Notes: generated from the letters alone by a model not told the origin. Shown: positions 1,358 to 21,174, counted from the first letter of the stretch. The stretch: 35,548 nt of DNA from a virus (IMGVR_UViG_3300037094_000013:1-35548); one strand, 5' to 3'. Program-made: numbers and translations.

Positions 1358-2902
1358 TTATTTTTTATCTTTGTTGTCCTCTTCGGGAGTATTTAAAACA
1401 AATGTCCCGATACTTGTTAATATAGTTGCGACAGCTACTGCATTACGCAATGCCATCTCTACTGCCTTAAAGGGTTCGACCACTCCACTTTCCAAAAGGT
1501 TTTCGTACTCATCGGTTGCAGCATTATAACCGATAGTTTTTGTCAATTTGGAGGGGATCACTTTATGTTGAGCGTTCTTTGCAATCTGTCGTACAGATGC
1601 TTCTGCCAACATATGAGCAACACTATCTGCTATCTCGTTATCTTTATAGTCACTGGCATCATAGGCATTGTACATTGACAATCCTCCACCAATCAAATAA
1701 CCAAAGAGCATTGAGGCTCGAACAGCATTAACTGCATCCTCATAACGATAGACCTTTTCACGAGCTTCTCGTTCTGTAGCGCCACCAATTTTGAGAGTAA
1801 CAATACCGTTTGTAAGGGATGCGAGACGAGCCTTTACCTTAGAATCATTCTTATCCTTATCAAGCTCTTCCTTAAGATAAGCAATTCGTTCTTTTAATTC
1901 AGGTGAGTTGTGTTGGTTAGTGAAGAGGATCTTTTGGGGGTCTGCAGATACGCTGGCAGCACGCACGAAATCATCACGACTAATACTATCCACCCGCCTT
2001 CCACTAGACTCAGAAATAACACTCGTTCCCAGGTAAACTGCAAGATCTTCCAAAGCCAAATCATCGCTGAGCTTAGCAAGAACAAGTCCCATAGTCCCAC
2101 GAGCGTGATTAGCAATAAAGGTATTAGGAGCATCGCCCAAGAAGTCCTTAGCAACGATGCACATTTCCTTGAAACCAAGATCCATACCGACTTGCAGTAT
2201 GTGTTCAGCCTCTTCAGCATAGTAAAGTGTCTTATCAAATATAATAACTGGTATCTCCTTATAGGCCATCGTGGGACGGGCAACATCTGAATACAGGTTC
2301 TGGAACTTCATCCCCTCACCTATTCTGAATCCCTCCTGCTTCTCAAGACGAGTCTCCGCGTTGGGATTAAGTTCAAGATAAACCATCCCGTTGAGTCCCG
2401 CTGTAGTTATAGTAGTCAGGACATTCTTTGCAATTTCCACATCCCCACCAGCCGAGATTGTAGCAACCTCTAGCTTTGTCTTATCAGACTTAACCTCTTT
2501 CTTATTCTTCTCAAGGCGCGAGAGAAGTTTATTCAATACATCACCAAAAGTTTCTTTGATGTCATATTGAGACATACCAGAATCCCGCAACTCCATTGCT
2601 TTCTTGATGAGGGCATGGCTATACAAGACGGTTGTTGAGGTTCCATCTCCAGCCTCTGCATTAGTGCGAAGTGAACCATCTTTAATGATATCAACTACTG
2701 CATGTTCAATAGGATCATCAAGTTGAATACCACGAATAATTGTGATACCATCGTTGGTCAGTTCAAAGTTACCCTTATCGGATTCATAGAGAACATTCTT
2801 TCCACGCGGGCCGATAGTTTCTATAACGGGAAGGCTCACCTTTTCGACTGCCTTGATGATCTGATCCCTAACATCCTTCTCTTGATAAAGTGTCTTACTC
2901 AT
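1358..2902 (-). CDS. groEL: Phage-encoded chaperonin GroEL
   Basis: 514 residues, somewhat shorter than the usual 540-550 and without the C-terminal GGM repeat tail. The equatorial ATP site is intact: NDG with Asp51, AGDGTST at 84-90 with Asp86, and YEDAV with Asp389, equivalent to Asp52, Asp87 and Asp398 of Escherichia coli GroEL. The late GGATEREAREK and YNAATDEYENLL stretches match the hinge and lower equatorial regions. The apical domain (roughly 185-365) is the most divergent part, as expected if it is tuned to phage substrates. The start overlaps the end of the NinG-like gene by 8 nt. With the downstream groES this is a complete phage chaperonin pair, presumably ATPase-active. Confidence 0.95.
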   Translation of the reverse strand: MSKTLYQEKDVRDQIIKAVEKVSLPVIETIGPRGKNVLYESDKGNFELTNDGITIIRGIQLDDPIEHAVVDIIKDGSLRTNAEAGDGTSTTVLYSHALIKKAMELRDSGMSQYDIKETFGDVLNKLLSRLEKNKKEVKSDKTKLEVATISAGGDVEIAKNVLTTITTAGLNGMVYLELNPNAETRLEKQEGFRIGEGMKFQNLYSDVARPTMAYKEIPVIIFDKTLYYAEEAEHILQVGMDLGFKEMCIVAKDFLGDAPNTFIANHARGTMGLVLAKLSDDLALEDLAVYLGTSVISESSGRRVDSISRDDFVRAASVSADPQKILFTNQHNSPELKERIAYLKEELDKDKNDSKVKARLASLTNGIVTLKIGGATEREAREKVYRYEDAVNAVRASMLFGYLIGGGLSMYNAYDASDYKDNEIADSVAHMLAEASVRQIAKNAQHKVIPSKLTKTIGYNAATDEYENLLESGVVEPFKAVEMALRNAVAVATILTSIGTFVLNTPEEDNKDKK

Positions 2903-5251: not shown

Positions 5252-5259
5252 TAGTTTTC
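5252..5259. repeat. Left target-site duplication of methyltransferase element 1
   Basis: TAGTTTTC lies immediately outside the left inverted repeat and is repeated exactly at 5919-5926 immediately outside the right one. An 8-bp direct repeat abutting inverted termini is the footprint of a DDE-type transposition. Confidence 0.75.
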
Positions 5260-5918
5260 GATGCCTATCCCTTCACCTATTTGCCTCGAAGAACGCTTGA
5301 GCAAACTTTTGCGAGCAAAGGGAGCGGAACTCCATATCGCTTTCAGGCACGTGAAGCCCTGCGAACTCTGGTATCAGGTGGTACGCGCTCTTGTGCAGGA
5401 ACGCGAGAGACGGCTTAGGGCGACCTGGGCGCACATACAACGGCAGCTGCGGAACGTCCTCCCATTTCTGGTACACGCGCTCTGGCTTATTGAACTTACC
5501 CCATAGTGCCGTTTTCTTTGTCCACGGCGAGCCGAAGTGCCACGGCTCATACGTCATTGTCGGCTCGCCCAAGAAGTCCTTTAGCCGACCGCTCGCGGGG
5601 TTTTCTATTACCCAAAATGTAGGCTTGCACTCCGCGATAATGCGCTGGCACTCACGCACCAAGAACAGCCCTTTTTCGTAGTCGCCCTGCTTGTGGAAGC
5701 CAGTAGCAATGCTGAACTCGGTACAAACGGGGTTGGCGATTATGCCGTACACGTCCTGTGGCGGGTGGTAGTTTTCTACTCCTATCTCGCTCCCCACAAG
5801 CACCACGTTATAGCCGTTATCGGCGTAGGGCTTGCTGTCGGAACCAGTATCGGCGCACAGGTGCAAGATGGTTTTCATATTCCAAGTGTAGCAATTATGT
5901 CGTCAGGGGATAGGCATC
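5260..5918. mobile_element. Methyltransferase-carrying mobile element 1 (659 bp)
   Basis: The perfect 12-bp inverted termini are GATGCCTATCCC (5260-5271) and GGGATAGGCATC (5907-5918), flanked by the 8-bp direct repeat TAGTTTTC. Almost the whole interior is one gene, the C5-methyltransferase on the minus strand, whose stop begins 1 nt inside the left terminus. The element lies in the 1-nt-to-4-nt zone after the stop of the transglycosylase gene and upstream of the promoter at 5165-5193, so it would disturb neither neighbour. No transposase is present. The same termini bound the element at 10204-10960. A 24-bp right-end sequence (5894-5917) recurs there with one mismatch. Confidence 0.75.
5273..5878 (-). 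CDS. C5-cytosine DNA methyltransferase-like protein
   Basis: 201 residues. The N-terminus LHLCADTGSDS (5-15) is the SAM-binding motif I region, ANPVCTEFS (48-56) carries the catalytic-type Cys52 in the place of the usual PPCxxFS, and VIENPASGRL (90-99) corresponds to the ENV motif. The protein is shorter than typical cytosine methyltransferases and has little room for a target-recognition domain, so specificity is unclear. Base composition is visibly GC-richer than the flanking operon, and the gene fills an element with inverted termini and a target duplication, both signs of transfer. It could mark phage DNA against host restriction. No cognate restriction enzyme is nearby. Confidence 0.75.
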   Translation of the reverse strand: MKTILHLCADTGSDSKPYADNGYNVVLVGSEIGVENYHPPQDVYGIIANPVCTEFSIATGFHKQGDYEKGLFLVRECQRIIAECKPTFWVIENPASGRLKDFLGEPTMTYEPWHFGSPWTKKTALWGKFNKPERVYQKWEDVPQLPLYVRPGRPKPSLAFLHKSAYHLIPEFAGLHVPESDMEFRSLCSQKFAQAFFEANR

Positions 5919-5926
5919 TAGTTTTC
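5919..5926. repeat. Right target-site duplication of methyltransferase element 1
   Basis: TAGTTTTC abuts the right inverted terminus and is identical to 5252-5259. It lies 2-9 nt from the stop codon region of the transglycosylase gene on the minus strand. Confidence 0.75.
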
Positions 5927-5927
5927 A

Positions 5928-6314
5928 TCAATCCCTCCAGCATTTTTCGCTCCACGACCATTGTTCTTTTCCATAATGTTTAAGTATATAGAACCCTGCT
6001 TCTAAGTTCTGTTGGGGATTGGTAATGTCGAATCCGAGTGACATCATTTGCTTCTGCCAGTAGTGGGAATTAATCTGCCAATACGAGTAATCGTATGACC
6101 ATATAATTCCTTCTGCATTCTTATTAGCCCTAAGAGCATTGGGAAGATCTCTCGATTCACATTCGATGATCCTTGTAGCCAGCGCCGCAGATACTTCGTA
6201 TTTCGCTGCCAGAGTATCTATTTGTTCTGTAAGTGTCGGGGGTATTGGGGGTTCGGCTGGGGCTTTATTTGGCCCTAATCCTAAGATTAGAGCGACCAAA
6301 TGGCCAACTATCAT
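5928..6314 (-). CDS. Lytic transglycosylase/lysozyme-like endolysin candidate with N-terminal signal
   Basis: 128 residues. A short hydrophobic N-terminus (MIVGHLVALILGLG) followed by a Pro-rich linker suggests export or a signal-arrest segment. The catalytic region reads ATRIIECESRDLP with the candidate catalytic Glu, then YSYWQINSHYW and NLEAGFYILKHYG, as in soluble lytic transglycosylase (goose-lysozyme-like) folds with the conserved Q-IN and A-ILK-Y-G elements. It would cleave peptidoglycan, either for host lysis or during entry. The next gene downstream was separated from it by methyltransferase element 1. A 96-aa membrane protein in the same operon (8655-8945) could serve as partner, but that is conjecture. 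Confidence 0.75.
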   Translation of the reverse strand: MIVGHLVALILGLGPNKAPAEPPIPPTLTEQIDTLAAKYEVSAALATRIIECESRDLPNALRANKNAEGIIWSYDYSYWQINSHYWQKQMMSLGFDITNPQQNLEAGFYILKHYGKEQWSWSEKCWRD

Positions 6315-6343
6315 GACTGAGACTCCATAGTACCATGGCGGTA

Positions 6344-6574
6344 CTACTTAGTCAATCCCTCAACAGCTTTTTCATACACCTTATTAATCTCATCCCCCAA
6401 TGCCTTGTGTAACTTAACAGCATACGGCTTGATCTCTTTGGTACTCATATTCTTAGCAAGTACCTTGGGATCAATCTTAAGTATCTTGGCAATAGCCATT
6501 GACAGCCGTAGTTGTGTATTGTATTTCTGTGGTTTCCCTTCAGAGGGTCTAACCTCTTCCTTAAAGTTATGCAT
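6344..6574 (-). CDS. Hypothetical 76-aa protein
   Basis: Starts at ATG 6574, 1 nt after the exonuclease stop (6576), which argues against the longer frame beginning inside that gene. It begins MHNFKEEVRPSEGKP and is Lys-rich with helical stretches (LRLSMAIAKILKI; VYEKAVEGL). No known family or motif is recognised. The position between a recombination exonuclease and a cell-wall enzyme gives no clear functional clue. Confidence 0.6.
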   Translation of the reverse strand: MHNFKEEVRPSEGKPQKYNTQLRLSMAIAKILKIDPKVLAKNMSTKEIKPYAVKLHKALGDEINKVYEKAVEGLTK

Positions 6575-6575
6575 G

Positions 6576-7412
6576 TTATTCAAAGTTTTGATTACAACGA
6601 TATAGTGTAAGTGCTGCAAGAAACGCCTCACGAACTGTACCCTTCTCGTCATGGATAATTTTAGGCTCGAATGTTGGTGCCCCAAACGGAATGATGATGA
6701 ATGTGTCTACCTCGATAGGATCAAACACTTTCTCTCCCGACGCAGTAAATCCACCAGTCTCTGCAAGTTCAATTGCATATCCACCTATTTGGTAGAATTG
6801 TTCTGCGTATGCAGCCTTAGAACTCTTGAAGTCTATGATTGCAGTCTTACCATTCTTAAGTAATGCACCACAGTCTGTGATGCCACCAAGCCAGTATTGT
6901 TCAGAGTAGGTATATAGTTCTGACCATAGGAACTTCTCTACGTTCTCGTGTGCCCAATCCGCAAATTGATGCACTTGCTCAAACGCTTCTTTTGGTTTGA
7001 TAGGCTTTCCACCTTCCTCAATACAAGACTTTACGTAAGACTCAAGTTCCGCATGCATGTCCTTCCCACCCTTCGCTGCTTTGTTTTTCTTTGTATCGTG
7101 GGCGCGATATGCTTCATCTAGAAGTTTGAGATATTCTTCGTCAAACATCTCTTGAATCTCGACGAACTTTTCTTTCACCAACTCAAGCCTGTCTTCAAAC
7201 TTAACTGTTCTAGGTTTCCCATTAACATACTCGGTAATGGGTGTCCATCCCAGTAATTTGAGACCCTCTCCTACGGCCCACCAGGTCAAAGGCTTTGCTA
7301 TTACTTTGAGTACCTCGGAAGTCCCTGTAAGAGGCTTCCCTCCAAGTGTATGTAAATGTCTTGGTCTATGTGTCTTTGGGTCTAGGTCGTCTTGGAATTT
7401 ATATTCTGACAT
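6576..7412 (-). CDS. PD-(D/E)XK exonuclease of the RecB/Cas4-like type
   Basis: 278 residues. The nuclease core is visible: His120 in GGKDMHAELES, GGITDCGALL with Asp180, AIIDFKSSKA with Asp194 and Lys196, and QIGGYAIEL with Gln208 and Tyr212, the classical motif order of RecB-family and phage recombination exonucleases. The N-terminal ~100 residues are charged and helical. It likely degrades or resects duplex DNA ends in phage recombination, working with the SSB-like protein (8309-8653) and NinG-like nuclease of the same operon. The start ATG 7412 follows an AT-rich leader containing AATAAATAA without a Shine-Dalgarno. Confidence 0.85.
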   Translation of the reverse strand: MSEYKFQDDLDPKTHRPRHLHTLGGKPLTGTSEVLKVIAKPLTWWAVGEGLKLLGWTPITEYVNGKPRTVKFEDRLELVKEKFVEIQEMFDEEYLKLLDEAYRAHDTKKNKAAKGGKDMHAELESYVKSCIEEGGKPIKPKEAFEQVHQFADWAHENVEKFLWSELYTYSEQYWLGGITDCGALLKNGKTAIIDFKSSKAAYAEQFYQIGGYAIELAETGGFTASGEKVFDPIEVDTFIIIPFGAPTFEPKIIHDEKGTVREAFLAALTLYRCNQNFE

Positions 7413-7465
7413 GTATAAAGTATCGTCTTATTTGTCTAATAAATAATGGCTCTGTTGCAACACGC

Positions 7466-7657
7466 TTAAATGGCTCTAATACTCACTGACCCAATTAAAC
7501 GCCCTGAGACGGCCCCTTCGGGCACGTATTGAGTGATAATCTCGTCGGCCTCAACTGAGTCACATAACCGGCATAGCCACTGGTTCATCCGGAAACTGTC
7601 TTTGACTATAGGATGTACGATGTGACAGTTCTCACACCCAAATTCGTTTCTTTTCAT
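7466..7657 (-). CDS. Small zinc-ribbon protein, 63 aa
   Basis: ATG 7657 overlaps the stop of the 47-aa membrane protein as ATGA, which fixes the start. Two CxxC pairs (CENC near residue 8 and CRLC near residue 30) make a zinc ribbon or knuckle likely. The C-terminal part has no motif. Small zinc-finger proteins are common in phage early operons as DNA- or protein-binding adaptors; no specific function can be given. Confidence 0.65.
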   Translation of the reverse strand: MKRNEFGCENCHIVHPIVKDSFRMNQWLCRLCDSVEADEIITQYVPEGAVSGRLIGSVSIRAI

Positions 7658-7797
7658 AGTTGAATAACTATCAAAACAATTCCAGTTATTAACATTACCC
7701 AACCAATAAGTTTCTTACCACAGAAGTCTGGATGATAACCAATGATCCCCGCTCCACCAAGGACAAGCAAACCACATAGTCCTATATCTATACTCAT
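7654..7797 (-). CDS. 47-aa membrane protein with two transmembrane helices
   Basis: ATG 7797 to TGA 7654, with ATGA overlaps at both ends to its neighbours, which is strong evidence that this short frame is translated. The sequence shows two hydrophobic segments: residues 5-20 (GLCGLLVLGGAGIIG) and 31-46 (IGWVMLITGIVLIVIQ), joined by a short loop with HPDFCGKK. The topology is that of a small hairpin membrane protein. A holin-like or superinfection role is possible but unproven. Confidence 0.65.
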   Translation of the reverse strand: MSIDIGLCGLLVLGGAGIIGYHPDFCGKKLIGWVMLITGIVLIVIQL

Positions 7798-8306
7798 AGA
7801 TTAAATGTTTCCTTAATTATATCTGAACCTAACTCATGTACCTTCTGCATGGTGCCAGTTTCCTTTGTCTTCTTCATGACCATGTACTCGTAGGTTCTAG
7901 TTGTAACTCCTTCAGCAACTCTCTTATCATACACTGCCTCACGGAAGTCGTGTTGAGAAAGAACTTTTGCTTGTTCAACTAACTCCTTTATATCTTCTTT
8001 TTTTGCTAGGGGAAGTAGGTAGAACAAACTCTTCGTGGGGATGTCTGCAATCTCTTCCTCTTCGTATCCAAGTTGAAGTACAAAGACTTCATAGATTTGC
8101 ATGAGGCGAGTTGCCTCTGACTTCGATAATCCAATTTCTGGATCGCGCAAATAATCTTCCCACTTATCTGCACCCTGTCCTACACACTTCTTAAATGCAT
8201 CTTCCTTTTTCAAATGATAAAGAAGCTTACCTATCATCACCGCACTCTCTTTTGTTAACCTTACTTCCTTAAGGAGTGCCTTATGGAAGGAGTATGGTGC
8301 TGACAT
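7794..8306 (-). CDS. Hypothetical helical protein, 170 aa, DUF3102-like pattern
   Basis: The start ATG 8306 lies 2 nt after the upstream stop; a TTG 3 codons earlier is less likely. The N-terminal half reads like a helical DUF3102-type phage protein, with IGKLLYHLKKE, then WEDYLRDPEIGLSKSEATRLMQIYEVF, a helix-turn-helix-like stretch. A later segment (LLPLAKKEDIKELVEQAKVLSQHDFREAV) resembles that found in ParB-like or regulator-like phage proteins. DNA binding is plausible but I cannot name a function. It sits between SSB-like and small membrane genes in the recombination part of the operon. Confidence 0.6.
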   Translation of the reverse strand: MSAPYSFHKALLKEVRLTKESAVMIGKLLYHLKKEDAFKKCVGQGADKWEDYLRDPEIGLSKSEATRLMQIYEVFVLQLGYEEEEIADIPTKSLFYLLPLAKKEDIKELVEQAKVLSQHDFREAVYDKRVAEGVTTRTYEYMVMKKTKETGTMQKVHELGSDIIKETFNL

Positions 8307-8308
8307 AA

Positions 8309-8653
8309 TTACCAATCGTTTCCTGAACTATCACCTGCCTCAATGACTGGTTCTGTAGGTGCCGAAGTGATACCCACCGCCCTCTCTAGTGCAGTCACTC
8401 GATCTTCAAGTTTCTTGTCAACCACAGAAGCCTTACTATTTGAGTCTACAACTTTAAAGTTAGTGAACTCACCATTCTTTTTAATCTCGATCATAACCTC
8501 ATCACCCTCCTTCCACCCTTCCGCGCCCTTGCTAAATGAGGACATACGAACATCTGGATATTCTACCGCAAAGATTGAGGTACGAGTACCTGGGCCAAAC
8601 TTTGTGTTAACGGGATCTCTGAAGATCTTTCGGATGGTAATTTTCTCTGCCAT
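8309..8653 (-). CDS. Probable single-stranded-DNA-binding-like protein (OB-fold candidate)
   Basis: 114 residues. The first ~70 residues are beta-rich, with alternating hydrophobics (TSIFAVEYPDV; DEVMIEIKKN; FTNFKVVD) as in small OB-fold proteins. A short coiled helix (LEDRVTALERAV) follows, and the protein ends with an acidic/Trp tip, GDSSGNDW, reminiscent of SSB C-terminal tails that recruit partners. Presence beside a RecB-like exonuclease, NinG-like nuclease and primase-helicase supports a replication or recombination role. Sequence similarity is not conclusive; another small OB-fold function is possible. The leader has AAATTAAAATAAT before ATG 8653. Confidence 0.45.
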   Translation of the reverse strand: MAEKITIRKIFRDPVNTKFGPGTRTSIFAVEYPDVRMSSFSKGAEGWKEGDEVMIEIKKNGEFTNFKVVDSNSKASVVDKKLEDRVTALERAVGITSAPTEPVIEAGDSSGNDW

Positions 8654-8654
8654 A

Positions 8655-8945
8655 TTATTTTAATTTATTGTGAATCTTATTAATTTCTTCCATTACTTTT
8701 GCATGGTGTTCATGCTGTGTCTTAAGATGTTTGTGTGTTAGCTTCTGCTGTGCCCCAAGAATTGGGAGCGCAATAAGCTGGATTACTGTCTGTGATAAAT
8801 ATGTACACCACGTAATCACATTGTTCGCTTGGATCACTGGCCCAAGTTCTACAAGATCAAGAATGATACATACGTAGAAGAAGGCCATCGAACTAAGTAG
8901 GTCTGCCATTAGTATAGCTAACCACTCATTGAATCGCTTAATCAT
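8655..8945 (-). CDS. Membrane protein, 96 aa, two helices and a His-rich coiled tail
   Basis: Two hydrophobic segments (about residues 9-31, ILMADLLSSMAFFYVCIILD, and 43-63, VITWCTYLSQTVIQLIALPI) are followed by a hydrophilic helical tail rich in His and Lys (HKHLKTQHEHHAKVMEEIN). Topology fits a small inner-membrane protein with a cytoplasmic tail. A holin function is possible but it is not adjacent to the cell-wall enzyme. It overlaps the HAD gene by 8 nt and precedes the SSB-like gene by 1 nt, confirming operon membership. Confidence 0.65.
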   Translation of the reverse strand: MIKRFNEWLAILMADLLSSMAFFYVCIILDLVELGPVIQANNVITWCTYLSQTVIQLIALPILGAQQKLTHKHLKTQHEHHAKVMEEINKIHNKLK

Positions 8946-9291
8946 AGTTTATTTCTTCTGGGTGAAAGGACTTATCGTCTAAATAAATATCTGCTCCAGG
9001 CTTCATGCACATGCAAATTCCATGAAAAGGAATCTCGTTTTTGATTAACCATGCGTGTGTCTGTGGATAGTATCTTGGTTGTCGTGCTGTATAGATAATT
9101 AGATGTGCCCCTTTCTTATAAAGTTTCCAAATAAACTCCTTCATCTCTGGAATTACCTTTGGTTCAGAATCATCACCCCACCATTCTCCCGACGCCAATA
9201 CTCCATCAACATCAATGGCAATGAGCTTATCGTTTGGACTTTTTAGGATGGACTTTAGTTCCTCCTTTGTGTGTGCTATCGTCTGTCCCAT
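8938..9291 (-). CDS. HAD-superfamily phosphatase
   Basis: 117 residues with the HAD signature: IAIDVDGVLA (residues 24-33; catalytic Asp27 and Asp29), IIYTARQ around 65-71 (motif II Thr) and IYLDDKS near 102-108 (motif IV acidic pair). The size is that of capless phage HAD proteins, often predicted nucleotide or polynucleotide phosphatases. It follows a DUF5664-type nucleotide pyrophosphohydrolase, so a shared role in the nucleotide pool is likely. The start overlaps that gene by 65 nt; no later in-frame start lies before the catalytic motif, so the long overlap seems real. Confidence 0.8.
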   Translation of the reverse strand: MGQTIAHTKEELKSILKSPNDKLIAIDVDGVLASGEWWGDDSEPKVIPEMKEFIWKLYKKGAHLIIYTARQPRYYPQTHAWLIKNEIPFHGICMCMKPGADIYLDDKSFHPEEINYD

Positions 9292-9613
9292 GTAATTTTG
9301 ACCTTACCATCTCTGCTCCACTAATATTAAATAGAATCGCCGCAGCGTGATCCTCATCCACTTCTCCAGAGAACCATTGTACAAAGTGCCGAAACGCCGA
9401 ATCCTTAAATCTTTCTAATTCCTCTTCTGTTGTTGCCTTCTCCCAATTCCTAGCCCCATACTTCACCGCACCTCTCTGCATTAACTCTGCCCACCGCTTA
9501 AGCATCGGAACATAAATCAAGTCATATCTTGGCTTCCCCTCATTAACATCTCGATTCATCCCCGTTGAATAGGTAATCCTCTTTCCACTATCCCTAGTCT
9601 TAAACTCTGCCAT
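9227..9613 (-). CDS. dATP/dGTP diphosphohydrolase-like protein (DUF5664 type)
   Basis: 128 residues from ATG 9613. The core EGKPRYDLIYVPMLKRWAEL, then YGARNWEKA, FRHFVQWFSGEVDEDHAAA and ILFNISGAEMV match the DUF5664 domain, a MazG-like helical fold found in phages and named as the N-terminal domain of a dATP/dGTP diphosphohydrolase. In phages with modified purine DNA such enzymes shape the dNTP pool; no PurZ-like gene is visible in this window, so that link is open. The C-terminal tail is low-complexity and basic, and it overlaps the HAD gene in a different frame. Confidence 0.7.
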   Translation of the reverse strand: MAEFKTRDSGKRITYSTGMNRDVNEGKPRYDLIYVPMLKRWAELMQRGAVKYGARNWEKATTEEELERFKDSAFRHFVQWFSGEVDEDHAAAILFNISGAEMVRSKLHGTDDSTHKGGTKVHPKKSKR

Positions 9614-9614
9614 A

Positions 9615-9857
9615 TTATCGAGTTGAATTACTAATTCCACTATTACGAGCCTGATAGACTTTACCTAAACGCATACGAGCATCTTCTAGATGTCGATATG
9701 CAAGCATTAGATTAGCCATCACTTCTCCTCTATCCTCTGACTCAATCGGAGGAAATTGGTTAGCTTCAAGTTTTGCTTTAAGAAGATTCTGTCCAAGCGT
9801 CTCAATCTGTTCACGAAGCAATTCACAATCTTTTTCGATTCTTGGTTCTGCTGGCAT
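9615..9857 (-). CDS. Candidate Acb2/Tad1-type helical-hairpin protein (anti-defence sponge?)
   Basis: 80 residues from ATG 9857, one nt after the preceding stop. The C-terminal half LAYRHLEDARMRLGKVYQAR is a signature I associate with the Acb2/Tad1 hairpin family, phage proteins that sequester cyclic nucleotides or cADPR isomers to block CBASS or Thoeris defence. The N-terminal half is a Glu/Leu-rich helix (ELLREQIETLGQNLLKAKLE), so the protein would be mostly two helices, as in that family. The usual downstream GG-S-YD loop is shortened to NSGISNSTR, so ligand binding is uncertain. It could equally be an uncharacterised small coiled-coil protein. Confidence 0.5.
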   Translation of the reverse strand: MPAEPRIEKDCELLREQIETLGQNLLKAKLEANQFPPIESEDRGEVMANLMLAYRHLEDARMRLGKVYQARNSGISNSTR

Positions 9858-9858
9858 A

Positions 9859-10035
9859 CTATCGCTTCTTCTTCTTTCCACCAACCATATGCTCCGCAAT
9901 TGCAATGGCCTGGCGTTGTCCAACTGGGCGACGAGGATTCTTACTTGATACTGGTTTCTTGGTATTACGTCGTACTCCTTCCTTCATGATCTTCTCGATC
10001 TTGGCCCCTACTGCTGTCTTTCTCTTCTTTGCCAT
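9859..10035 (-). CDS. Small basic protein, 58 aa (DUF6496-like)
   Basis: ATG 10035 to TAG 9859. It begins MAKKRKTAVGAKIEKIMKEG and contains RPVGQRQAIAIAEHM, with a basic GGKKKKR end. This resembles the DUF6496 group of small phage and bacterial proteins whose core is a helix with RKQAIAI; function unknown, probably nucleic-acid contacting because of its charge. Its stop precedes the next ATG by 1 nt. The leader TTATTTCCTGT and AATAATAATGAAGAAAT region holds no Shine-Dalgarno beyond a weak GAAG. Confidence 0.65.
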   Translation of the reverse strand: MAKKRKTAVGAKIEKIMKEGVRRNTKKPVSSKNPRRPVGQRQAIAIAEHMVGGKKKKR

Positions 10036-10147
10036 ATTTCTTCATTATTATTTCCTGTAAAACGAATACAGATACGCCATCCCGACCGAAATAGCGAAGT
10101 CTCCTTCGCTTACTTCCTTCCCTGCGCTCTGCCTTTAACTTATTCAT
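9965..10147 (-). CDS. Possible basic 60-aa protein
   Basis: ATG 10147 to TAA 9965; begins MNKLKAERREGSKRRRL and is highly basic, with FGRDGVSVFVLQEI as its only hydrophobic stretch. It overlaps the 58-aa gene by 71 nt in another frame, which weakens it. In its favour, if methyltransferase element 2 is removed, the restored primase-gene stop (10152-10154) falls 4 nt before this ATG, exactly the operon's spacing. I recognise no family. Confidence 0.4.
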   Translation of the reverse strand: MNKLKAERREGSKRRRLRYFGRDGVSVFVLQEIIMKKYGKEEKDSSRGQDREDHEGRSTT

Positions 10148-10203
10148 ACTATCATCTAATGCTACTTGATGTCAAGGGGGAATCTGTGGTGTAATGTTTT
10201 AGG

Positions 10204-10960
10204 GATGCCTATCCCGTAGCAACAAACTATTTTCGTGTGCCATAATGTACGAATGAATAAATCTGTCATATATTCAATCTTTTATTTATAATATCTATGT
10301 ATTTTCCGTCAATTTCAATTCCAATATATTCTCTCCCTAGATTTTTACACGCAAGTAATGTAGTGCCAGAACCAGCGAATGGATCAACTATAATTTTATC
10401 CTCTGGTATTAGTTTAATTATATTCTCCATAACTTCTAAAGGCATTTGGCAGGGGTGTGAAGTTTTATCTTTAGAAACATTTTTTACTTGATTTATATTC
10501 CACCAATCATACCCTCTTGCTAGTTTTCCATCTGCTATCCTTTTCATTATTCTTTTATCGGTAGGGTTTTTGAAAGGTTGTCCTAGTTTTCTAAAATCTG
10601 GTTTTATTCCAAAAAATGCTATATCTCTATGTTGTTTTGCTGTATTTGAATTATAAACCCAGCTGATAACTTTTTGTGGTATTTCTTCTACCGCCCAAGA
10701 GATTTTATAAATACTTTCTGGGTAATGAATTACCACAAATGGAGCAAACTTGAAAACTTCCCTCAACCAAGAGTAATACTCATCTTCTTCCAAGTTGTCT
10801 TTATAATCCCCATAATGATAACCGATATTAAATGGCGGATCTGTAACTATGACAAAATCGCCTTTTATTTTTGCTAACTCTACTAAACAATCCGATTGTA
10901 TTATTTTATTCATACTAGAAGTATATATCTATCGCATTATGTCGTGAGGGGATAGGCATG
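10204..10960. mobile_element. Methyltransferase-carrying mobile element 2 (about 757 bp)
   Basis: Left terminus GATGCCTATCCC (10204-10215) and right terminus GGGATAGGCATG (10949-10960) are the same inverted repeats as element 1, with one terminal mismatch on the right. Flanking bases GTTTTAGG (10196-10203) and CTTTTAGG (10961-10968) match at 7 of 8, a slightly decayed target duplication. The interior holds a single amino-methyltransferase gene on the minus strand and about 50 bp of AT-rich non-coding sequence at the left. The right end supplies the last ten codons and stop of the primase zinc-finger gene. No transposase is present. Confidence 0.75.
10266..10913 (-). CDS. Amino-type DNA methyltransferase (N6-adenine or N4-cytosine)
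   Basis: 215 residues. DPPF (25-28) is the catalytic motif IV, HPCQMP (153-158) is the HPxQxP element common before the SAM site, and DPFAGSGTTLLA (177-188) is motif I, followed by GREYIGIEID. This permuted order (catalytic motif first, SAM site last) is that of beta-class methyltransferases. No clear target-recognition domain is seen beyond the middle region, so specificity is unknown. It is AT-rich, unlike the C5 enzyme in element 1, although both elements have the same termini. A likely role is protecting phage DNA from restriction; no partner nuclease is adjacent. Confidence 0.88.
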   Translation of the reverse strand: MNKIIQSDCLVELAKIKGDFVIVTDPPFNIGYHYGDYKDNLEEDEYYSWLREVFKFAPFVVIHYPESIYKISWAVEEIPQKVISWVYNSNTAKQHRDIAFFGIKPDFRKLGQPFKNPTDKRIMKRIADGKLARGYDWWNINQVKNVSKDKTSHPCQMPLEVMENIIKLIPEDKIIVDPFAGSGTTLLACKNLGREYIGIEIDGKYIDIINKRLNI

Positions 10961-11204
10961 CTTTTAGGTACTCTGTTGCATCGTGGAACGAATATCCCAT
11001 ATCAACCAGGAATGAAATAGCTCCATGCCCATTTTTACCGCATCCAAAACAGTGATATCCACCATCGGGATAAAGAACACAAGATGGACTACGTTCTTCG
11101 TGGAATGGACATCTAACCGATATTCGTCTTCCTGGTTTTAATCCCAATAACGTAGGAATCGGAATCTCACGCAATCTCTGTAGTTCACTTACACTGAGTT
11201 CCAT
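10929..11204 (-). CDS. Primase zinc-binding protein (CHC2 type), 3' end replaced by element 2
   Basis: 91 residues. The DnaG-type zinc ribbon is clear: RCPFHEERSPS with Cys32 and His35, then YHCFGCGKNG with Cys52 and Cys55, followed by GAISFLVDMGYSF. Such domains read the template for primer start in DnaG and T7 gp4. Here the domain is a separate protein, translated after the TOPRIM-helicase gene with a 16-nt overlap, so the T7-type primase is split. The last residues (ACLSPHDIMR) are encoded by the inserted element; without it the frame would read LKHYTTDSPLTSSSIR before its stop. The core zinc domain is unaffected. Confidence 0.85.
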   Translation of the reverse strand: MELSVSELQRLREIPIPTLLGLKPGRRISVRCPFHEERSPSCVLYPDGGYHCFGCGKNGHGAISFLVDMGYSFHDATEYLKACLSPHDIMR

Positions 11205-12726: not shown

Positions 12727-13023
12727 TTAGATCGTCCATACATCTGTTTCTCGCTTAGCGTTGTTAATCATCTCGCGCCTGTGGCTTCTAGTGTTGCGTG
12801 TGTGACGATTGCCACCAAGTAACATTTCAAGTGCCAGATCGACCGTGCCGACGTCAATTCCAATTATTGACTCTCTTTCACGCCTTAGTAGTTCTTTAGA
12901 GATAGTGGGGAAAGGATCGGGCATTGGCTTTGTTTTTGCACCAGGTTTAACCATAAGAAACCATTTGTATACAGATTTAAGTGGTAATCCATCATTCCTG
13001 TTCGGCATATTCTGTGATCGCAT
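12727..13023 (-). CDS. Hypothetical 98-aa protein
   Basis: Between the ATP-grasp and primase-helicase genes, overlapping the former by 32 nt if ATG 13023 is used or 17 nt if ATG 13008 is used. It contains a Pro-rich segment (KPMPDPFPTI), an acidic/aliphatic stretch (IIGIDVGTVDLALEML) and a basic C-terminal region (RHTRNTRSHRREM). I recognise no domain. A helicase-loader-like role would be typical of the position but nothing in the sequence proves it. Confidence 0.6.
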   Translation of the reverse strand: MRSQNMPNRNDGLPLKSVYKWFLMVKPGAKTKPMPDPFPTISKELLRRERESIIGIDVGTVDLALEMLLGGNRHTRNTRSHRREMINNAKRETDVWTI

Positions 13024-13759
13024 TAGCGTAGGCAGTTTGTCCCATCGGGCTAACGCCCGCCGCCGTGCCTACCTCTAGGACGTATGATCTGTCCCGATAT
13101 CTGATAATGTCCACCGCCCCAAAATCAAGCCCCAATGCCTCTATTGCCTCTCTAGCGCGAAGTACAACACCCTCTCTAGGGGAGACATCGCGCAAGAAGT
13201 AAAAGCCGTTGTGGGCGTTTTTAATGCGTTCTGCGGGGGCCGCCTCGTAAGTGCCATCCTCGCGCTGTTTCATTTTCTTGGCATAGTCAATTGCTTCGCC
13301 CTTAAAAATGTGAACACGATATTCCTCGCACGGATTGAGTAGCTTTGTGTAAAGCGGGGCTGGCTGGATCGTGTCGGGGGTAGATATACGAATACCCGCC
13401 CCCCCACTACCCGTAAGCGTGTGTCGCTCTACGATGTCATGCCACTGTCGTGCCTCGTCTATGTCCACTGTCCACGGTACTGTTCGCACTCCAGCCTCGC
13501 TTAGTTTTTCAAAAGTTCGTAGCTTATTTACTGCCAGTGCTACTGCACTTGGCTTGTTCAAAATCTGTTCGGGATTGTATGCCCATTGTGGCTCTCTAGA
13601 ATTACCCCAGTTGACAATTAGATCATCAACACGACTAGTATAGCGACGATTAGGATACACCCTAATTGTGTTTTTCCCATTATTACGTTGAAGCGCGTCG
13701 GCTATACCCCGTGAAGACGCACTGGCTATTTTGTAAGGAAAAATGACGATCCTACCCAT
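12992..13759 (-). CDS. ATP-grasp ligase-like protein
   Basis: 255 residues. An N-terminal region (VNWGNSREPQW, NKPSAVALAVNKLRTFEKL) precedes the ATP-grasp core: ERHTLTGSGGAGIRI as the glycine-rich loop, EEYRVHIFKGEAI, and the metal-binding end LDFGAVDIIRYRDRSYVLEVGTA. This architecture recurs in phage ATP-grasp proteins that comparative genomics groups with phage amidoligases and class II glutamine amidotransferases. It may join amino acids or amines to peptides together with the products of 16727-21929, although it lies in the opposite, replication operon. GC content is higher than in adjacent genes. The exact substrate is unknown. Confidence 0.75.
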   Translation of the reverse strand: MGRIVIFPYKIASASSRGIADALQRNNGKNTIRVYPNRRYTSRVDDLIVNWGNSREPQWAYNPEQILNKPSAVALAVNKLRTFEKLSEAGVRTVPWTVDIDEARQWHDIVERHTLTGSGGAGIRISTPDTIQPAPLYTKLLNPCEEYRVHIFKGEAIDYAKKMKQREDGTYEAAPAERIKNAHNGFYFLRDVSPREGVVLRAREAIEALGLDFGAVDIIRYRDRSYVLEVGTAAGVSPMGQTAYANAITEYAEQE

Positions 13760-16726: not shown

Positions 16727-18295
16727 ATGCCTAACGCACCACAAAATAACCAACCCACACAGGCACAGCAAAATATGGAGCAACTGCGTAGGGGTTTGTT
16801 AGAAGACTTTGTACCAGATCGTCATTTGATAGGATGTGATCGTTGCGGTGGGGTAATAGAAGAAAATGCACAGAGAGTTGAGGGGATGTTTGGCTTTAGG
16901 ATTCTTTGTGCGCCGTGCTTCATTGAGCTAACAAGAAACCAAGAAGTTTTTGAGCCTCATGATAAAAAAAAGCCCAAGCCTAAGTTTGAACAAGGCACGA
17001 TCATCAAGTCGGATCGCCAGTTTGGACTAGAGTTTGAAGTGAACCTAGACCTTGCTGGGCAACATACACTACGCGACCTTGTGGCCCGTGATTTTAACCT
17101 AGTTCACGATGGTAGCGTAAACGCTGGTATAGAGGTAGTTTCTCCCATACTTTGCGGTAAGACAGGCGAAGACAAGATAAAAGCCATGTGTTCCTCACTA
17201 CAAAAGGTAAAGGCTGGCGCAGATGATAGCTGTGGACTTCATGTTCACATTGACGCCGCAGATTATTTTGAGAACACAAGAATAGATCTCACCACCCTTT
17301 CGGTGATCGGTAAAATAAGAGACTGTAGAATATACGTTTTGGACGCCACCCTACAAAAGACAATGCGCGAGGATAACTACGGGCTATGGGAGGCTGTCTA
17401 TTCTAACGGATCGCTAGATCAATTCACGGTCAACGAGTTTCTGGATTATATGCAAAGTGGAAAGTCCGTAGCAAACCTACCCGTTGTGTGGGCAGATGAT
17501 GGAAAAGTTGCAGAAACTTTTATACAATTCTACACGCCGATTGGATCGCGTGGTGCAAGAATTAAAAACAACGACAGTATAAAGACGGAGGCAGACATTA
17601 AAAAATATCACGGTGAACCATCCCTTGTCACGTTCGGATATTCCAAGTTTGTTGTCATAGACAGGGAGACTTCTAATAATCTTTATTGTGTTTGTGTACC
17701 TAAGTCTTATAGCAAGGGAGATAAGGATCGCCTAGATAGAATTAAGCGCGTGGCCTCATTCTATATCGCATTTGATGACGTGCTTGCCGCGATGTTGCCA
17801 TGTGATAGACGCGACAATGACTTTGCGATCCGTGCGTCAACGCGCATGTCCATACGAGACGTATCGGTTTGCGCTTCTATCCTTGACTTTTTCAACGCAT
17901 GGACAAAGACAAAGGACTTGCGTGGATTCAGACTGTCAATGGGAGAACAACGACACGAAAGCCGATACTATGGGATCAATTTTAGGGCATTATTAAAACA
18001 CGGCACTATCGAGATTCGATATCACGCAGGTACTACAGACGCCGACAAAGCTCTCCACTGGACTGCTCTACATCAGCGTATTGTGGACATCGCCGCAGAC
18101 CTAAAAGACCCCCGCTTTAACCTTGACAGATTGGAAAAGGCAGACATGGTTATCGAAATAGATCGTAAGGCAGACCTATTTTTCGCCAAGCTAAACCTAC
18201 CAAGCGATACAGAGACATACTTGCGTAAGCGCATATCTGAGTATTCTGGTGAGGATTCACATTTTGTTGAAAGTTTAATCGCAGACGATAAATAA
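16727..18295 (+). CDS. Amidoligase-family enzyme (PF12224-like) with N-terminal zinc knuckle
   Basis: 522 residues. A zinc knuckle (CDRC 37-40; CAPC 61-64) precedes an amidoligase core of the glutamine-synthetase-like COOH-NH2 ligase superfamily: FGLEFEVN (99-106), HDGS (127-130), GIEVVSP (134-140), CGLHVHID (169-176) and later GTIEIRYHAGTTDADKA. Family members are predicted to make amide bonds between carboxylates and amines using ATP. It is the first gene of an operon with a glutamine amidotransferase, a second amidoligase and a gamma-glutamylcyclotransferase, so a peptide- or cell-wall-modifying pathway is likely. The exact substrate cannot be read from sequence. Confidence 0.8.
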   Translation: MPNAPQNNQPTQAQQNMEQLRRGLLEDFVPDRHLIGCDRCGGVIEENAQRVEGMFGFRILCAPCFIELTRNQEVFEPHDKKKPKPKFEQGTIIKSDRQFGLEFEVNLDLAGQHTLRDLVARDFNLVHDGSVNAGIEVVSPILCGKTGEDKIKAMCSSLQKVKAGADDSCGLHVHIDAADYFENTRIDLTTLSVIGKIRDCRIYVLDATLQKTMREDNYGLWEAVYSNGSLDQFTVNEFLDYMQSGKSVANLPVVWADDGKVAETFIQFYTPIGSRGARIKNNDSIKTEADIKKYHGEPSLVTFGYSKFVVIDRETSNNLYCVCVPKSYSKGDKDRLDRIKRVASFYIAFDDVLAAMLPCDRRDNDFAIRASTRMSIRDVSVCASILDFFNAWTKTKDLRGFRLSMGEQRHESRYYGINFRALLKHGTIEIRYHAGTTDADKALHWTALHQRIVDIAADLKDPRFNLDRLEKADMVIEIDRKADLFFAKLNLPSDTETYLRKRISEYSGEDSHFVESLIADDK

Positions 18296-18301
18296 TAATT
18301 T

Positions 18302-19750
18302 ATGTGTGGTATCTTATGGGTAGATAGTAAACGTGGTATGAGTGCTGTAAAGCCACTAATAAAGCGATACCGAAAACAGGATCATCGCGGAAAGTCGGGA
18401 TATGGTTACGTTGCGGTAGATGCCAACGGATTCGTTGGTGAGATACACCGCAGTACAGACGAAGACGGGATCATGGAGGCACTTGCAAGTGAACAGTCTA
18501 GTAAGATTCTGTTTCATCATCGCTCCCCCACAAGTCTACCTAACTATGTGGGCGCAACCCACCCATTCAAGATCAGTAAGGACGATTTTGATTTTGATTA
18601 TTACATCGTACATAACGGCGTGATCGCTAATGCAGAGTTTCTTTTTGGTGAATACAAAAAGGCTGGTATAAAGTTCATGTCCGAAATGGCAGAGGGAAAA
18701 TACCATGAGTTTGTCAACACCGACGAATACTACGAGGACTTGGAAACTAAAACAAAGGTAAACGATAGCGAGGTTTTTGCAGTTGACATGGCCGCATTTA
18801 TCGAGGGAAAGCAAACGTGGGTAAAGTCGGCGGGCACCATCGCTTTCATTGGCCTACAAGTATTCAAGAATGGTAAGGACGCTGGCAAGGTCAACTCCCT
18901 ATTTTGGGGACGAAATAATGGCAATCCTGTATGCCTAGAAGAAGACAATGTTTTGTTCACATTGTCAAGCGAAGCTGGTGGAAAAGAAGTAGACGCTGAC
19001 AAAATATATTTCAAAAACTGGCAGACAGGCGAGATCACCACCAAACAAGCCAACGGTATTGCTTATCATGGATTCTCTACAAATGCAAGCGGAATCAAAA
19101 ATGTACATAAGACTAAAGCCGAAAGAAAGGCAGAACGTTGCGCCGCGCGTAAGGCTGGCCAGTCCAACGGCCTACCCGAAGATGCTGTTATACTCTATGA
19201 TGGTGGCCCTAACGAGCCAGAACCAGACCCCGAAATTGACGACGCCGTTGCAAGAATGACGGGCACAAGGATAGAGTCACACCCCTCATTTGATTGGATA
19301 GAAACCCTTAAAGCAACGCAAGATCAAGACGTAAACTTAAAGACCATGTGGGGACTTCTACCCACAAAGTCTAAATTACTTGCCGCAGGTGCCGCAGAGC
19401 AAGTAGAGGATATGACGCTTATTGACATCGGCATTGACCTTAACGCAATAGACAATGAGATCGAAGCGGCAGACATGGGGCGTGGTGACGCAGACGCAGG
19501 GCTGTTGCGACAATTGCGCGACGATTTACAGGATGATCTTGATAGTGAAAATGACGCACTAAGGGAGTTGCGATCTGCACAAGAATTGTTGCGTGAGGCC
19601 GTACAAGCAAAGCCATTCATTCTTAAAGACAGTGAAGAAGCAAAAGCCATGGTGGACGCCGCAAGCTCACAGTGGGGCGAGGCACACAACGCCCGTATTG
19701 CTACATGTGCCGAACTAGAAGCTCACATGGGTGCCTATGGTGGATGGTGA
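18302..19750 (+). CDS. Class II glutamine amidotransferase
   Basis: 482 residues. The N-terminal Ntn-hydrolase domain is diagnostic: MCGILWVD with catalytic Cys2 (exposed after Met removal), FHHRSPTS (71-78), ATHPF (85-89) and VHNGVIAN (103-110). The domain would hydrolyse glutamine to supply ammonia. The C-terminal 200 residues are acidic and coiled-coil-like (RQLRDDLQDDLDSENDALRE) with no synthetase domain, so ammonia would be delivered to a partner, probably the amidoligases beside it. It starts 6 nt after the first amidoligase and overlaps the 110-aa gene. Confidence 0.85.
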   Translation: MCGILWVDSKRGMSAVKPLIKRYRKQDHRGKSGYGYVAVDANGFVGEIHRSTDEDGIMEALASEQSSKILFHHRSPTSLPNYVGATHPFKISKDDFDFDYYIVHNGVIANAEFLFGEYKKAGIKFMSEMAEGKYHEFVNTDEYYEDLETKTKVNDSEVFAVDMAAFIEGKQTWVKSAGTIAFIGLQVFKNGKDAGKVNSLFWGRNNGNPVCLEEDNVLFTLSSEAGGKEVDADKIYFKNWQTGEITTKQANGIAYHGFSTNASGIKNVHKTKAERKAERCAARKAGQSNGLPEDAVILYDGGPNEPEPDPEIDDAVARMTGTRIESHPSFDWIETLKATQDQDVNLKTMWGLLPTKSKLLAAGAAEQVEDMTLIDIGIDLNAIDNEIEAADMGRGDADAGLLRQLRDDLQDDLDSENDALRELRSAQELLREAVQAKPFILKDSEEAKAMVDAASSQWGEAHNARIATCAELEAHMGAYGGW

Positions 19751-20073: not shown

Positions 20074-21174
20074 ATGAACGCCTTAACATACTACAGCATT
20101 TCGATGGGGTGTGATCCAGAGTTTTTCTTTAGCAAGGATGGTAAAATCGTTGGTAGTGAAAAGCTGATACCCAAAGAAGGGAAAGTATTGTTTAACAAGG
20201 GTGACAGCACAATGGGAACACACGCGCTCACTTCCGATTCAGTTGCCGGAAAGATCATCATAGATGGTGTGCAAGCCGAACTGAACCCGCGCCCACACTC
20301 ATGCCGTGCAACATTGGGAAATGAGATCGCGTGGTGTTTCCGTAAGATCAAGAATGAGTTATTGAAAGACGGCAATACCATAGATTTCTCACAAGCCGTT
20401 GAAGTCTCTAAGGAGGAGATGGATAGCCTTAGTGCGTCGTCTAAGCGTTTTGGATGTTCGCCATCACACAATGCCTACGCAGAGGATGGCAATAGTAAAA
20501 TCACCGTCAATCCGTTAGTCTATCGTACCCGTGCGGCAGGTGGGCATATTCATCTTGGCCCGAACCCATCCGACACGCTAGAGACGCAACGCAAGATCAA
20601 GGATGCACTTGACAATCATAAGATTATAGTGCCTATTCTAGACTTGATTGTAGGCAATACTTGTGTTCTGGTAGACAGGAACCCGTCAAACATAGAGCGA
20701 CGCAAGGTATATGGCAAGGCAGGTGAATACCGTACCCCAAAATACGGGCTGGAATACCGCACCTTGTCTAACTTCTGGCTAACATCATACCCACTGTTTG
20801 GAATGGCCTTTGGGCTTGCTAGGCTCGCGGTAAATATCGTTGCAAACGATACAGAGGACTTTTCCTACTCTAAAGCATTATTGGAAAAGGTGCGTATGCG
20901 CGATGTTGTTAAAGCGATCAACGAAAATGACTTCGACCTTGCGTTGAAAAACTTTAACGCGATAAAGCCGTTGCTCATAGAAATGGTGGGTGTTGGAGGC
21001 CATCATCCCATTACAACGGGAAACATCGCATATTTTGAACACTTTATCACTAAGCCCATGTCCTATTGGTTTAAGGAAAACCCCCTAGACCATTGGATCG
21101 GACTTGGCGATGGTCATGCTGGGGGATTCGAGGACTTTCTAGCAAAGGTCGTTTCTAAGGACATGGTAAAGTAG
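20074..21174 (+). CDS. phiEco32-type COOH-NH2 ligase (amidoligase type 2)
   Basis: 366 residues. It shows the family's sequence landmarks in order: MGCDPEFFF (11-19), DGVQAELNPRP (64-74), AAGGHIHLGP (154-163) and GLEYRTLSNFW (225-235), with acid and His residues that would bind ATP-metal as in glutamine-synthetase-like ligases. This is the family first described in phage phiEco32 and predicted to form amide links. It is distinct from the amidoligase at 16727, so the cluster has two ligases of the superfamily. It lies 4 nt after the 110-aa gene and 1 nt before the next gene. Confidence 0.85.
   Translation: MNALTYYSISMGCDPEFFFSKDGKIVGSEKLIPKEGKVLFNKGDSTMGTHALTSDSVAGKIIIDGVQAELNPRPHSCRATLGNEIAWCFRKIKNELLKDGNTIDFSQAVEVSKEEMDSLSASSKRFGCSPSHNAYAEDGNSKITVNPLVYRTRAAGGHIHLGPNPSDTLETQRKIKDALDNHKIIVPILDLIVGNTCVLVDRNPSNIERRKVYGKAGEYRTPKYGLEYRTLSNFWLTSYPLFGMAFGLARLAVNIVANDTEDFSYSKALLEKVRMRDVVKAINENDFDLALKNFNAIKPLLIEMVGVGGHHPITTGNIAYFEHFITKPMSYWFKENPLDHWIGLGDGHAGGFEDFLAKVVSKDMVK

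Follow-up and report, generated by a model that had tools for sequence, protein, structure and literature searches.

Two methyltransferase genes of a phage genome carried in transposase-less cassettes with IS1595-type ends

Results

The window analysed here, IMGVR_UViG_3300037094_000013:1-35548, is a stretch of viral DNA of 35,548 nt, and it contains two short elements, E1 and E2, whose coordinates count from its first letter. E1 (5260-5918, 659 bp) and E2 (10204-10960, 757 bp) are transposase-less IS1595-type cassettes, each enclosing one DNA methyltransferase gene. Exact copies of GATGCCTATCCC occur in the window at 5260-5271 (+), 5907-5918 (-) and 10204-10215 (+), and a copy with one mismatch occurs at 10949-10960 (-); the inverted ends match at 12/12 positions in E1 and 11/12 in E2. 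The terminal inverted repeats of E1 are GATGCCTATCCCTTCAC on the left (5260-5276, +) and, read inwards, GATGCCTATCCCCTGACGACATAAT on the right (5894-5918, -), the latter with a -35-like CTGACG. In E2 the left repeat (10204-10224, +) shows partial decay past its first 12 bp, and the right repeat reads inwards as CATGCCTATCCCCTCACGACATAAT (10936-10960, -). At the right ends, the 24-bp stretches 5894-5917 and 10936-10959 conform to ATTATGTCGT[C/G]AGGGGATAGGCAT and differ at a single base, as an earlier, sequence-only reading of this DNA had reported. Immediately outside its ends, E1 is flanked by the target duplication TAGTTTTC (5252-5259 and 5919-5926, 8/8), and E2 by GTTTTAGG on the left (10196-10203) and CTTTTAGG on the right (10961-10968), which agree at 7/8 positions. 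That reading had overlooked the duplications; together with the inverted repeats they uphold its view that the common factor is the mobile frame and not the gene.

The two pairs also emerge when no motif is supplied. A de novo scan of the window for inverted 12-mers with at most one mismatch, a span of 200-2500 and flanking direct repeats of at least 7/8 returned E1 and E2 only; the same scan on 30 dinucleotide shuffles gave four hits in total and never two in one shuffle. The G+C (GC) content is 54.6% in E1, 32.5% in E2 and 43.5% in the window, in line with the compositional difference already noted between the two cargoes.

The E1 cargo (5273-5878, -) encodes a 201-aa protein with the motifs NPVC, which contains the PxC motif, and IENP. 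It matches the DNA methyltransferase family phrog_757 (1.5e-27) and, weakly and under the cut-off, PF00145 (0.005). An AlphaFold model built with 17 relatives has a mean predicted local distance difference test score (pLDDT) of 89.7, and a Foldseek search with this model retrieved the C5-cytosine methyltransferases DNMT3A, HaeIII and HhaI (E 1e-6 to 1e-5). The protein aligns over its full length with the 17 relatives, with P50, C52 and E92-N93-P94 invariant, and the C5 methyltransferase fold, the catalytic PC motif and an ENV-like motif are all present. It is thus a predicted C5-cytosine DNA methyltransferase. The relatives' C termini are mostly EANR/K/Q followed by the stop codon, and the E1 enzyme keeps this natural C terminus. 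The E2 cargo (10266-10913, -) encodes a 215-aa N6/N4 amino-methyltransferase that matches PF01555 N6_N4_Mtase (1.2e-30) and contains DPPF. Given phrog_757 and the structure matches for the one and PF01555 for the other, the assignment of the cargoes to two enzyme classes holds. Among the methyltransferase relatives of the two cargoes (L005-L026), none lies inside an element with these or other recognisable ends.

E2 has entered the 3' end of a Zn-ribbon primase-like gene (10929-11204, -; PF01807). This gene now terminates within the E2 repeat (...CLSPHDIMR and stop); when the E2 flanks are joined, its frame lengthens (...EYLKHYTTDSPLTSSS).

Where does the frame come from? No PF12762 transposase was found in the window, and since E1 and E2 carry none of their own we class them, by sequence, as IS1595-family derivatives and not as complete insertion sequences (IS). 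Both have the features that define a mobile insertion cassette (MIC): paired inverted repeats around a passenger gene, no transposase and a target duplication. The ends were searched in viral contigs, which yielded other copies, and as the pattern TGTCGTNANGGGATAGGCAT in 84,980 genomes; the pattern ATTATGTCGTNAGGGGATAGGCAT had no match in the viral contigs. A single genome matched TGTCGTNANGGGATAGGCAT, on two of its contigs: A14_bin-1224 (G001, ~0.77 Mb), in which the ends occur 27 times, versus 0 for a reversed control pattern. They pair as about eleven miniature inverted-repeat transposable elements (MITEs) of ~121 bp; the duplications match at 8/8 positions in nine of these and at 7/8 in two, and their register is in every case that of E1 and E2.

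A complete element (L144/L115) lies in G051, a genome of the same order as G001. It has the left end CATGCTTATCCCTTGACGACATAAT, which is identical to the E1 right end at 22/25 bases, the duplication TATATCCT on both sides, and a 291-aa IS1595-family transposase (PF12762; L070/L115, 6e-27). A search with this transposase found more complete copies with exact duplications, including L145 and L146; L146 has 12/12 inverted repeats, the ends CACACCTATCCC and the duplication GAGTTATC. More distant complete PF12762 elements (L149, L154) share the TATCCC core and have 8/8 duplications. Complete elements also occur in two viral contigs, L156 (PF12762, 8e-33; duplication GAGTTTTG, 8/8) and L157 (PF12762, 2e-29; duplication GAGTTATA, 8/8). 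Among the relatives, duplications of 8/8 flank the nine MITEs, L130, L131, L144-L146, L156 and L157. Because the ends are shared with transposase-bearing IS1595 elements, the frame is best read as an IS1595-family element of which E1 and E2 are transposase-less derivatives. The proposal of a trans-acting transposase fits these data, at least presumptively: the window has none, and same-ended IS1595 elements reside both in related small genomes and inside two viral contigs. Searches for same-ended copies thus turned up MITEs, four more cassettes and PF12762 elements.

Some complete IS1595-type elements of small bacterial genomes contain passenger open reading frames (ORFs) of their own. These are ClpP-like (L150:439-1020), PemK/MazF-like (L154:961-1374) and weakly HEPN-like (L109:2522-3277).

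The distribution of the ends bears on whether they are instead a regulatory motif of the phage, a common promoter or terminator placed around two methyltransferase genes and unrelated to mobility. A -35-like hexamer does lie in the repeat upstream of each methyltransferase gene, and the 24-bp upstream side is better conserved than the downstream side. However, a promoter-only reading is contradicted by the inverted copy at the 3' side and the 8-bp duplication outside each end. Moreover, MITEs and elements with a transposase, in bacteria as well as in other viruses, are bounded by identical ends. We regard the promoter-only reading as highly improbable. The sequence-only reading had itself named two outcomes that would speak against mobility, unique loci or ends that are merely a promoter; other copies exist, and the ends are not such a promoter, though one of them has a promoter-like box. 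Integron or site-specific cassettes and a shared promoter alone were considered and dropped.

A second alternative is that the cassettes are dead remnants, once mobile, that inserted a single time and became fixed; they would no longer move, and the methyltransferases would persist because of what they do. The absence of a transposase from the window record and the imperfect left repeat and duplication of E2 are what such remnants would show. Against this, the E1 duplication is perfect (8/8) and its ends match at 12/12, the GC contents of E1 and E2 are far from each other and from that of the phage, suggesting recent separate arrivals, and complete transposase-bearing copies are present in viral contigs. 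On balance we consider this alternative unlikely, although it is the most serious of those weighed here.

Six distinct phage cassettes were found in all. Besides E1 and E2 they are L130 (798 bp; duplication GATAACTT, 8/8), with a PF01555 methyltransferase that bears only a distant resemblance to that of E2; L127/L131 (344 bp; duplication GAGTTATC, 8/8), with a DUF6527 cargo; L132 (325 bp), with an 86-aa cargo and a weak RyR-like match under the cut-off (0.0055); and L004 (471 bp), with a 71-aa cargo that has no family match. Further candidates (L003, L128/L129, L133, L134, L136-L143) were set aside as chance matches, having no paired end and duplication in the expected register.

These cargoes do not support the suggestion that the frame collects modification genes in particular. 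Three of the six cassettes (E1, E2 and L130) carry DNA methyltransferases, of different types, as a dedicated system for gathering DNA-modification genes would have it. But the cargoes of the remaining three are small proteins of unrelated kinds, the complete elements carry ClpP-like, PemK-like or unknown passengers, the ends show no sign of cargo choice, and phage methyltransferases are so common in general (>1000 phage records match) that a half share is not striking. With a small sample, half of it methyltransferases, and varied other passengers, we do not accept specialisation for modification genes, which is improbable on this evidence.

Do the ends also serve the expression of the cargo? 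In all six complete copies examined, positions 13-18 of the repeat on the tnp side read TTGACR, and a -10-like hexamer stands downstream of it at a spacing of 16-17. At the same repeat positions the cassettes have CTGACG, CTCACG, TTCACG or ATGACG. L132 has a good -10 with suitable spacing (TATAAT at 18), and inspection by eye points to another in E2 (TATACT at 17), but not every cassette has one. The distance between the element edge and the cargo ATG is 36-51 bp in E1, E2, L130, L131 and L132, L004 being the exception; similarly, the tnp start lies 46-47 bp from the edge in L144/L145. The opposite repeat, read from inside, offers TGA and TAG in two frames, and five of the six cargo ORFs terminate within the inverted repeat. 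In E1 and L132 the stop is the repeat TGA, 13 bp from the edge (5273-5275, minus strand, in E1), and in L004, L130 and L131 it is the repeat TAG, 5 bp from the edge, with the C terminus VVKG. The E2 stop lies outside the repeat, 62 bp from the edge. Homology to free-living phage relatives ends at residues 244-249 of 250 in L130 and 92-95 of 100 in L131, just before the VVKG tail; therefore, the repeat adds a short tail to these proteins. The complete element of G051 likewise contains an ORF (L144:2803-3138) that terminates in the repeat (...HYVFKG and stop).

Native target sites were reconstructed by removing the element and one duplication for 23 elements, namely those of the window, L004, L130, L131, L144-L146, L149, L154, L156 and L157 and the G001 MITEs. 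When 21 targets were oriented for maximal information with no assumed motif, they gave AGTTATCCACA at 10.2 bits, versus a mean of 3.6 and a maximum of 4.45 bits in 40 random target sets. This sequence includes the DnaA-box consensus TTATNCACA, against which 14 of the 23 sites score at least 7/8, compared with 2.8% of random places. The DnaA-box-like motif lies nearly always at one offset, covering the last five duplication bases and four bases outside. The resemblance of native targets to DnaA boxes may reflect an involvement of DnaA, or the transposase may simply read that sequence. In L132 the flanks at 7471-7481 (GTGCATAACTT) and 7807-7817 (AAGTTATGCAC) are both DnaA-box-like.

Elsewhere in the window, a phage-encoded GroEL (phrog_5725) lies at 1358-2902 (-), and distant GroELs occur in two more cassette-bearing viral contigs, L004 (9085-10623) and L132. 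ORFs at 12992-13759 (-), 16727-18295 (+), 18302-19750 (+) and 20074-21174 (+) form a cluster that includes a RimK-like ATP-grasp protein (phrog_2599) and an amidoligase (phrog_2443). The ORF at 18302-19750 has no PHROG match; by eye it resembles a class-II glutamine amidotransferase and starts MCGI. The cluster is possibly a peptide- or amide-ligation pathway in the phage.

Discussion

We propose that E1 and E2 are very probably non-autonomous IS1595-family elements of the MIC type, presumably moved in trans. Between the terminal inverted repeats, which are about 12-25 bp long, a single cargo gene stands where a complete element has its transposase gene. A complete copy elsewhere, carried by the host or by a co-infecting phage, would provide the IS1595-family transposase that cuts or copies the cassette, whose insertion would yield the 8-bp target duplication. 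Positions 13-18 of the repeat 5' of the cargo hold a -35-like hexamer, just as they do ahead of tnp in complete copies, and expression may come partly from this repeat. Stop codons in two frames lie in the repeat 3' of the cargo and end most cargo ORFs. The methyltransferase cargoes likely shield phage DNA from restriction.

Several observations weigh against this proposal. The E2 duplication is 7/8 rather than 8/8, that of L004 is only 6/8, and the flanks of L132 form an inverted, not a direct, repeat. The E1 and E2 sites fit the family target motif poorly (5/8). No empty-site relative was found in a search via the helicase of the window phage, and an IS1595 transposase is absent from G001, the MITE-rich candidate host genome. 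Finally, movement in trans and cargo expression are both what we infer from sequence.

The cassettes can be compared with several known systems. In MIC231 of Bacillus cereus and the qnrD/qnrS2 mic elements, the inverted repeats of an IS and a target duplication frame a passenger that replaces the transposase, and the unit moves in trans (PMC3913671). E1 and E2 likewise have IS inverted repeats, a target duplication and a passenger in the transposase's place; unlike those elements, they have ends of the IS1595 family rather than of IS231/IS4, they reside in phages, they carry one compact gene whose stop codon usually comes from the repeat, and their movement in trans is presumed. Tn3-derived MITEs and TIME-COMP elements (PMC13367494) are also non-autonomous inverted-repeat elements able to carry cargo; they belong to another transposon family, and the composite there has two MITEs, unlike the single unit of E1 and E2. 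Duplications of 8 bp are published behaviour of the IS1595/IS1016 group (PMC12561309). The present elements share with the IS1595 family (IS1016 group, ISApl4; PF12762) the transposase family, the 8-bp duplications and complete same-ended copies with passenger ORFs; unlike IS1595 insertion sequences, the window copies lack a transposase. ISApl4 has 14-bp repeats and A/T-rich duplications, in contrast to the NNNNNCTATCCCTTGACRACATAAT ends and the AGTTATCCACA-like targets of the subgroup to which E1 and E2 belong. In plants, Pack-MULE and Pack-TYPE transposons also lack a transposase and have inverted repeats around captured gene sequence, mostly gene fragments. This is an analogy only: they are eukaryotic, of another superfamily and carry mostly fragments, in contrast to the complete small genes found here.

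As kinds of element, MICs and passenger-bearing IS1595 elements are already known. We did not find reports of such elements in phages as units of one gene with stop codons borne by the repeat, nor of a DnaA-box-like target; both are apparently new. In the open-access literature we found no paper linking IS1595 with Patescibacteria, and none on phage MICs with methyltransferases or on DnaA-box targeting by such IS.

The host is presumably a member of the Patescibacteria, because the genomes in which the ends occur are small (the order spans 0.4-1.2 Mb), which is consistent with this host and does not prove it. More tentatively, and with doubt prevailing, we suggest that a one-gene cassette system may be shared by phages of such small-genome, probably Patescibacterial, hosts. 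IS1595-type repeats, with their -35-like box on one side and stop codons on the other, would frame any captured small gene, and a shared transposase would insert the unit at DnaA-box-like sites (TTATNCACA), so that cassettes could travel between phages and host replicons by way of one target type.

Single 'moron' genes abound in phage genomes, and the route by which they arrived is usually unknown; here it can be read from the repeats, the target duplications and the family of the transposase. The cassettes offer a testable means by which DNA methyltransferases, probably antirestriction genes, could spread among phages whose bacterial hosts are uncultivated. Their inverted repeats double as predicted expression signals, and the IS subgroup to which they belong has insertion sites similar to DnaA boxes.

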